From positions 1 through 64,000 of the forward strand of contig JANXTR010000025.1 in assembly GCA_025352325.1 (NCBI GenBank): a stretch of 64,000 nt of DNA, given 5' to 3'. A program made the position numbers and the translations under genes. The stretch comes from Microbacteriaceae bacterium. Lineage in GTDB: Bacteria; Actinomycetota; Actinomycetes; Actinomycetales; Microbacteriaceae. Every line of letters starts with the position of its first letter. The first letter of the stretch is position 1. The notes below the pieces were generated by a model. The model worked only from the letters and a program-made list of their open reading frames with translations, did no database searches and was not told the DNA's origin. Shown here piece after piece: positions 40,631 to 42,370 of the stretch.

Positions 40631-41836
40631 ATGCTGCGTTGGTTGACCGCCGGTGAGTCCCACGGCCCCGAATTGGTGGCCGTGCTCGAGGGGTTGCCCG
40701 CCGGGGTGCCGGTCACCCGCGAGGGGATCCAGGCCGACCTCGAGCGCCGCAAGCTCGGCTACGGTCGCGGCGCCCGCATGAAGTTTGAGCAGGACGAGCT
40801 GAACTTCTCCGGCGGCGTGCGCCACGGCCTCTCGATGGGCGGTCCGATCGCGCTGCGCATCGGCAACACCGAGTGGCCGAAGTGGGTCGACGTGATGAGC
40901 GCCGAGCCGGTGGATGCCGCGGTCTTCGAGACCGGGCGAGGTGCTGCTCTCACGCGCCCCCGGCCGGGCCACGCGGACCTCGTGGGCATGCAGAAGTACG
41001 ACTTCGACGAGGCGCGACCCGTGCTGGAACGCGCGAGCGCCCGCGAGACCGCGGCCCGCGTTGCGCTCGGCGCCGTCGCGCGCGCATTCCTCGGGGAGCT
41101 CGGGGTCGCGCTGGTGAGCCACACGCTGTCCATCGGTCCGGTGCGGGTGCCCGAGGGCTCGCCGCTGCCGACCGTGGCCGACCTGAATGCGCTCGACACG
41201 GATCCGCTGCGGTGCTTCGACCCCGTGACATCCGGTCTGATGGTCGCCGAGATCGACGACGCGCACGACAGCGGAGACACCCTAGGCGGTGTCGTCGAGG
41301 TGCTGGCATACGGACTCCCACCGGGACTCGGCAGCTTCGTGCATTGGGACCGCCGACTCGACTCGCAGCTCGCCGGCGCTCTAATGGGCATCCAGGCGAT
41401 CAAGGGGGTCGAGGTCGGCGACGGATTCCTGACGACCACCCGCCGCGGCTCGCAGGCCCACGACGAACTGGTCGATGATGACGGCCTCATCACGCGCCTG
41501 AGCGACAAGGCGGGCGGCACCGAGGGCGGCATGAGCACGGGCACGCTGCTGCGCGTGCGCGCCGGGATGAAGCCCATCGCGACCGTCCCGCACGCCCTGC
41601 GTACGGTCGACGTCGCCACGGGTGAGGCGGCGGCGGCGCACCACCAGCGTTCCGACGTCTGTGCCGTGCCCGCTGCCGGTGTCGTCGCGGAAGCCATGGT
41701 CGCTCTCGTGCTCGCCAACTCGATGCTCGAGAAGTTCGGCGGGGACTCGGTCGGCGAGACCCGGCGCAACCTCGACACCTACCTCGCGGCCATCCCGAGC
41801 TCGCTGCGGACCGCCGCGAACTCGACGCCCGAATGA
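40631..41836 (+). CDS. aroC: Chorismate synthase
   Basis: This 401-aa FMN-dependent enzyme makes chorismate from EPSP. Hallmarks: [20 protein letters not shown] at the start, [35 protein letters not shown], and [20 protein letters not shown] near the FMN site. ATG 40631 has a weak -10-like AAGAAT 6 nt upstream and may also be read as part of the operon. The stop is the first link in a chain of overlapping mini-frames leading to aroK. Confidence 0.97.
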
Positions 41837-41870
41837 CCGGGGACTGGCGATGACCGGCGCGAGGCGATGA
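41833..41870 (+). other. Relay of two overlapping 6-codon mini-ORFs between aroC and aroK
   Basis: The aroC stop overlaps ATG 41833 (ATGA), which opens MTGDWR and stops at 41851-41853. That stop overlaps ATG 41850, which opens MTGARR and stops at 41868-41870. That stop in turn overlaps ATG 41867, the aroK start. The three units are imperfect 17-bp repeats beginning ATGACCG. A terminating ribosome could step from aroC to aroK by three reinitiations. Confidence 0.6.
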
Positions 41871-42370
41871 CCGTCGGTCCTCCCGTCGTGCTTATCGGCC
41901 CGATGGCAGCCGGCAAGACGCGCGTCGGCAAACGGGTGGCGCGCATCCTCGGCACGGGATTCCAGGACACCGACAAGCTCATCGTCGCCGAGCACGGCCC
42001 GATCCCGGCTCTCTTCGACGAGTTCGGTGAGCCGCACTTCCGTGCACTCGAGCGGGATGCCGTGGCGCGCGCGCTGGCCTCCGACGACGTCGTCGCGCTG
42101 GGTGGCGGGGCTGTGCTCGCGCCCGAGACGCAGGAGCTGCTCGCCTCCCACCGGGTTGTGCTCGTCACGGTGACACCCGAGGCGGTGGCGGCGCGGATCG
42201 GCGACGGTCGACGCCCGCTCGTCCGCGGTGGCCTGCGCGACTGGGAGCGCATCTACGCCGAGCGGCTCCCCATCTACCAGAAACTGGCACTCCTGACGGT
42301 CGACACCTCGCACCGCCCGATCGATGCCGTGGCACAGGAGGTGGCCGCATGGTCGACCCAGACGGCGTGA
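41867..42370 (+). CDS. aroK: Shikimate kinase
   Basis: This 167-aa P-loop kinase phosphorylates shikimate at O3. Walker A is VLIGPMAAGKTRVGKRVA, the shikimate site has FQDTDKLIVAEHG, and VALGGGAVLAPETQ is the GGG motif. RPLVRGGLRDWERIYAER is the lid with the essential Arg. It is short and compact, as usual. The 3' end overlaps aroB by 22 nt. The start is fixed by the ATGA overlap with the upstream mini-frame. Confidence 0.95.
   Translation: MTVGPPVVLIGPMAAGKTRVGKRVARILGTGFQDTDKLIVAEHGPIPALFDEFGEPHFRALERDAVARALASDDVVALGGGAVLAPETQELLASHRVVLVTVTPEAVAARIGDGRRPLVRGGLRDWERIYAERLPIYQKLALLTVDTSHRPIDAVAQEVAAWSTQTA

Follow-up and report, generated by a model that had tools for sequence, protein, structure and literature searches.

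Among the closest described systems are termination-reinitiation at overlapping stop and start codons and the MIRU repeats. PMC10666635 reports that a gap of about 20 nt nearly abolishes reinitiation, that the addition of 38 nt lowered it by 80–90% or wholly in three E. coli gene pairs, and that coupling needs no more of the upstream gene than its last 15 nt. In the review PMC12548453, short ORFs are described as delivering ribosomes to a coupled gene, with MIRUs as the natural case, and MIRUs are said to permit insertion with little effect on expression; PMC4213456 gives three tandem 77-bp MIRU units for senX3-regX3 of H37Rv.

We analyzed the aroC-aroK junction in a 64,000-nt stretch of Microbacteriaceae DNA (contig JANXTR010000025.1; hereafter the window), in which NCBIfam models gave the gene order aroE-aroC-aroK-aroB-aroQ-efp. 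The curated NCBIfam cut-offs were passed by aroC and aroB, while aroK and aroE gave matches that were strong by E value yet below the cut-offs (for aroK against the shikimate kinase models, the best E value was 3.7e-27, with every match below the curated cut-off). The features of the junction are as follows.

40631..41836, + strand: aroC, chorismate synthase, 401 aa, stop TGA at 41834-41836 (NCBIfam TIGR00033, E 2.9e-123, above cut-off)
41833..41853, + strand: mini-ORF 1 (MTGDWR), read from the sequence; its start overlaps the aroC stop (-4) and its stop overlaps the mini-ORF 2 start (-4)
41833..41873, + strand: imperfect tandem repeat of 17 bp, 2.4 copies, 83% matches (Tandem Repeats Finder); +34 bp relative to both congeners
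41850..41870, + strand: mini-ORF 2 (MTGARR), read from the sequence; its stop overlaps the aroK start (-4)
41861..41864, + strand: GAGG, Shine-Dalgarno (SD)-like, 2 nt before the aroK ATG and badly spaced
41867..42370, + strand: aroK, shikimate kinase, 167 aa, in the aroC frame; its start coincides in the alignment with those of both congeners

An earlier note on this DNA had described three ATGA overlaps that chain the aroC stop, the frames MTGDWR and MTGARR, and aroK, and our analysis confirmed this arrangement. ATGA occurs at 41833, 41850, and 41867, that is, at intervals of 17 bp, and the three overlaps join the aroC stop, two 6-codon frames, and the aroK start. The first ATGA opens mini-ORF 1, with the reading frame ATGACCGGGGACTGGCGATGA, and the second opens mini-ORF 2, with the reading frame ATGACCGGCGCGAGGCGATGA. 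The gap from aroC to aroK is 30 nt, and the gene pair itself thus lies outside the spacing typical of termination-reinitiation (-4, -1, or a few nucleotides), whereas each of the three consecutive junctions lies within it. A rough survey of the window, with 46 genes called approximately, covered 32 close pairs on the same strand, and only the aroC-aroK pair had a relay (mini-ORFs bridging a stop and the next start by such overlaps).

The description of the units as 17-bp imperfect repeats was likewise borne out, by the period of 17 found with Tandem Repeats Finder and by the identities between copies, which amount to 13 (A/B), 10 (B/C), and 9 (A/C) of 17 positions. Taken alone, this similarity is only moderately unusual, as equal or greater repetitiveness was seen in 30 of 3,000 random 51-mers of the window (~1%) and in 13 of 3,000 shuffles (0.4%). 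A chain of two mini-ORFs arose in 6.8% of dinucleotide-preserving shuffles of the window's own spacer, since ATGA belongs to the shuffled material. When searched as a triple rather than as single 17-bp copies, the exact 17/17 ATGA arrangement occurred once in the 2.83-Mb genome of the window and was absent from the two congeners. A loose pattern for other ATGA chains gave 136 matches in the genome, and 40 matches picked by eye among the 100 listed were examined; among these 40 there is, as a sequence pattern, at least one further three-ATGA chain, with 14/14 spacing and 5-codon frames (L145, G000:C8:172890-172921). Separately, about three copies of an 18-bp repeat, ATGAAA(G/C)A(C/T)CTCAGTGCA, were observed near a contig end (L146, G000:C12:124-215).

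The window's genus was represented by three genomes in the set compared, the window's own included. Both congeners (AroC identity of 94% and 82%) have a bare 4-nt aroC-aroK overlap (ATGA and GTGA) and an aroK of the same N-terminal length, and the window differs from both by exactly +34 bp, or 2 × 17. The alignment, for which cut stretches with a ragged 5′ end were the input, puts the 34 bp after the aroC end that the genomes share and before the aroK start. The proposal that the stop-start junction was tandemly duplicated, for which the earlier note had suggested a check of repeat number in relatives, is supported by this exact difference from two plain-overlap congeners, neither of which has the 34 bp, and by the repeat signal. 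Such a duplication, a mechanism that we infer, is the simplest account of the 34 bp and the most likely one, ahead of another type of insertion. The ancestor would have had the plain overlap (aroC-ATGA-aroK) still present in both congeners, and the window's lineage would have gained 34 bp, most likely because a segment of about 17 bp spanning the stop-start junction was tandemly duplicated twice, or doubly in one event. Every duplicated copy would have carried its own ATGA, giving two mini-ORFs of 6 codons linked through overlaps of 4 nt, and for this reason the insertion would have left no plain gap. The double relay is real and young, and it is probably a duplicated coupling junction. An error of assembly or sequencing would be conceivable for a structure known from one genome only, a draft of 54 contigs, but the surrounding frames are all intact, and a collapsed or stuttered repeat is unlikely because the copies differ from each other; we regard such an error as very improbable. 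A side observation concerns JABBOD010000020.1 (L005), titled "Acidobacteria bacterium," which has an aroC-aroK junction and an AroC 94% identical to that of this Microbacteriaceae genome, so that its label looks wrong.

The duplication could also have been neutral. The 34 bp would then be a tolerated spacer, with aroK starting from its own site or through ordinary 30S binding aided by nearby ribosomes, and the mini-frames would do nothing that matters. Slippage-like repeats that form no relay are consistent with this reading: they were found at the aroC-aroK junction of three Cryobacterium loci (L028, L040, and L027), and the junction thus tolerates repeat events. In Cryobacterium frigoriphilum (L028), the aroC stop is followed by a 16-bp unit, in about four copies, that repeats the aroC end with its TAG stop. 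Against neutrality, the window retains all three ATGA and both frames despite 4 to 8 mismatches per 17 positions between copies.

Ribosome-binding signals also bear on a neutral spacer. Anti-SD energies were obtained by a simple duplex calculation. We found no well placed SD for aroK; the sole anti-SD match near its ATG is the GAGG, which at 2 nt is too close, and its energy is -1.7 kcal/mol without the last 4 nt before the ATG and -5.9 kcal/mol with them. Upstream of the mini-ORF 1 start, pairing is about 0 kcal/mol, and for mini-ORF 2 a GGGG stretch (41839-41842) pairs with the anti-SD at -5.7 kcal/mol and at a fair distance. The earlier note had named a separate aroK start with a ribosome site of its own as evidence against the relay; such a start is not clearly present, the match of mini-ORF 2 being the better placed one. 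The lack of a well placed aroK SD argues against the neutral reading. The aroB start (42349), situated within the end of aroK, differs from aroK in this respect, for its SD-like match is very strong (-14.8 kcal/mol; 42328-42370 of the window). Across the junctions compared, median SD strength was -4.4 kcal/mol for relays, -1.9 kcal/mol for direct overlaps, and -2.65 kcal/mol for spaced junctions, from which no conclusion is drawn because most relays belong to one genus. The local RNA fold (41770-41930) was no better than shuffles (z of 0.46). Two further candidates were rejected at the junction: a structured leader, given the ordinary fold and 0 Rfam matches, and an internal promoter, for which no promoter-like site was found.

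Given the gap data in PMC10666635, direct aroC-aroK coupling should be largely lost across a plain gap of 30 nt. The known demands of reinitiation would be satisfied by a chain of three -4 overlaps with 6-codon frames between them. A ribosome finishing aroC would restart immediately, translate six codons, terminate, and repeat this until it arrives at the aroK start; mini-ORF 2 may in addition load ribosomes on its own via its GGGG site, and the mini-ORF peptides would have no function of their own. The explanation that we favor, with moderate confidence, is that the duplicated stop-start junction preserved aroC-aroK coupling across the insertion, and coupling would be the reason for the persistence of the structure. 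The lack of a promoter-like site and of an Rfam match at the junction counts in its favor, and the ordinary RNA fold and the moderate repeat signal taken alone count against it.

The 34 bp also sets aroK in the aroC frame, with one TGA, followed by C, and 10 sense codons between the two genes. TGA followed by C could be a leaky stop signal, and readthrough could permit some AroC-AroK fusion, since the aroK ATG lies in frame 0, 11 codons past the TGA, with no further stop. However, frame 0 is expected one time in three by chance, and it is also found in 9 of 54 spaced family junctions (aroK is in frame +1 in 40 of the 54, an excess that shared ancestry may explain). AroC-AroK fusions in relatives were rejected as a candidate, with 0 fusions among 168 junctions, and the long open-frame values that had pointed to them stem from upstream stop-free frames. 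We consider readthrough highly unlikely as the explanation of the locus.

We then return to the preservation of coupling with a census of aroC-aroK junctions in relatives. The samples were nonrandom, the named loci being the 80 best AroK relatives and the rest being taken down ranked hit lists; identical junctions were removed, and near-identical ones may remain. Outside the family, 71 junctions were classified, comprising 62 direct overlaps (-4 or -1), 7 spaced junctions (one of them 1,101 bp, i.e., with genes not truly adjacent), 1 relay, and 1 other overlap. Since 62 of 71 overlap directly, tight aroC-aroK coupling is probably ancestral. The 173 classified junctions of the family comprised 67 direct overlaps, 22 relays (the window's double one counted), 54 spaced junctions without a relay, and 30 other overlaps; beyond these, there were one junction without a called start (L219, a relay on closer look) and one partial junction. 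The 54 spaced, relay-free junctions indicate that adjacency coupling is dispensable there, which is in line with a neutral spacer. So is the relay frequency outside one genus, g46, which is near the shuffle expectation: among the first 156 junctions, 75 were spaced, of which 11 had a relay (6 of them in g46), whereas shuffles gave an expectation of 6.3. A family-wide enrichment of relays, being unconvincing outside g46, was thus rejected. Outside g46 there are eight relays, counting that of the window, and three of them (L013, L019, and L144) lead to an upstream candidate aroK start instead of the one predicted from length. In genus g5 (7 genomes, five of which were examined singly), relays were found in L126 and L128 and a direct TGATG in L223, L226, and L228. 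Two mini-ORFs were found only in the window among the 22 family relays.

Genus g46 was chosen for a full search because six of six sampled members had a relay, and one aroC-aroK mini-ORF of 6 to 11 codons was present in 15 of 15 genomes (L206-L220). The layout is aroC TGATG, mini-ORF, TGATG aroK, with mostly -1 overlaps; L208, having lost the usual TGATG start, has gained a GTGA, and L206, having lost the second TGATG, has a GTGA. In both g46 and the window, mini-ORFs bridge the aroC stop and the aroK start by -4 or -1 overlaps, one mini-ORF in g46 and two, by -4, in the window, and the two relays look to be of independent origin. The stop-to-start distance in g46 takes the values 19, 22, 28, and 34 nt, each of which gives the frame needed for one hop; all differences in spacer length are multiples of 3, and the peptides differ. 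The AroK match is split in two in the genomes G398 and G403, perhaps owing to draft errors. For the 10 of 15 genomes with equal spacer length, divergence was 0.37 at interior sites, 0.05 at the four diagnostic TG..TG sites, and 0.22 at aroC third positions.

Neutral evolution of the g46 relay was simulated on the aroC tree with third-position rates, no indels, and a root carrying the relay. At the scale matching interior divergence, a mean of 3.8 to 4.2 of 15 tips retained the relay, and all 15 retained it in 0 of 3,000 runs; at a scale of 0.35, about half the observed divergence, all 15 did so in 1 of 3,000 and 0 of 3,000 runs. In an earlier simulation with another neighbor base, all 15 were retained in 0.1% of runs at a scale of 0.5 and in 2.65% at a scale of 0.25, the latter (a quarter of the third-position rate) giving an interior divergence of 0.17, far under the observed 0.37. 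These comparisons support selection in g46 on the architecture of the relay, not on the peptide. The test was post hoc, as the pattern was first seen in one of 85 family genera, and the effect size survives this. Selection for a relay at this same junction speaks against the neutral reading of the window's duplication, which we consider unlikely overall, though it is the strongest rival of the favored explanation. The conserved g46 relay is the most interesting by-product of the analysis; it points to selection for chained stop-start hops and offers a natural test set in which the peptide is free and start, stop, and frame are held.

The earlier note had further suggested a chain of termination and reinitiation that sets the AroC:AroK ratio. 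The coupling part of this proposal gained indirect support from the recurrent relays, their presence throughout g46, and the gap data in PMC10666635; the ratio part did not, as the chain may simply preserve an older coupling. Since reinitiation is imperfect, as PMC10666635 establishes in principle, every hop would lose ribosomes, AroK would be lowered relative to AroC, and the ratio could be selected. Nevertheless, peptides and hop number are unconserved, and g46 and the congeners use one hop or none; a down-tuning device is improbable.

Beyond this locus, relay mini-ORFs might be a general, selected way to keep coupling as a junction grows, with length free while stop-start hops remain, a reading that we put forward tentatively and hold to be less likely than preserved coupling in the window. 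Within it, the single hop conserved across a genus and the freshly duplicated double hop of the window would make the stop-start junction a duplicable module. If ribosomes hop along noncoding mini-frames, operons can absorb insertions without loss of coupling, and many "intergenic" spacers of 20 to 40 nt in GC-rich bacteria should be reread as translated relays. The relay also bears on a dispute, found in PMC10666635 and PMC12548453, over the distance that ribosomes travel after termination.

In the open-access literature, we found no report of a mini-ORF relay made from duplicated stop-start junctions, which is not proof of absence. Among known tiny operon ORFs, mgtQ, an 8-codon ORF between Salmonella mgtC and mgtB, promotes the downstream gene, according to PMC8092293, by stem-loop opening and ribosome-destabilizing codons; in the window, the overlaps chain directly, and no unusual fold, and hence no stem-loop sequestering the downstream ribosome-binding site, was seen at 41770-41930. 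The minigenes of axe-txe (PMC8708949) and engineered short upstream ORFs (PMC13255528) are nonfunctional mini-ORFs that increase, in cis, the translation of the gene that follows, the distance to the start being important. These are two-codon or designed frames with their own ribosome-binding sites, whereas those of the window are made from duplicated stop-start junctions. MIRUs, as in senX3-regX3, are repeats between co-oriented genes and contain an ORF that connects with the following gene through a -4 overlap, and the three ATGA of the window show the same overlap of a repeat ORF with neighboring stops and starts. The MIRU unit is a long, dispersed one of 77 bp that seems mobile and occupies many sites; in contrast, the window's unit is 17 bp, encodes six codons only, and lies at one site, its 17/17 triple occurring once in the window's genome when searched as a triple. 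Finally, the -4 overlaps (ATGA) of the window are of the kind used in ordinary termination-reinitiation, which works at -4 and -1 overlaps (ATGA, TGATG), but while the usual systems have one overlap between two real genes, the window has three in a row and interposes two hops that are not genes.
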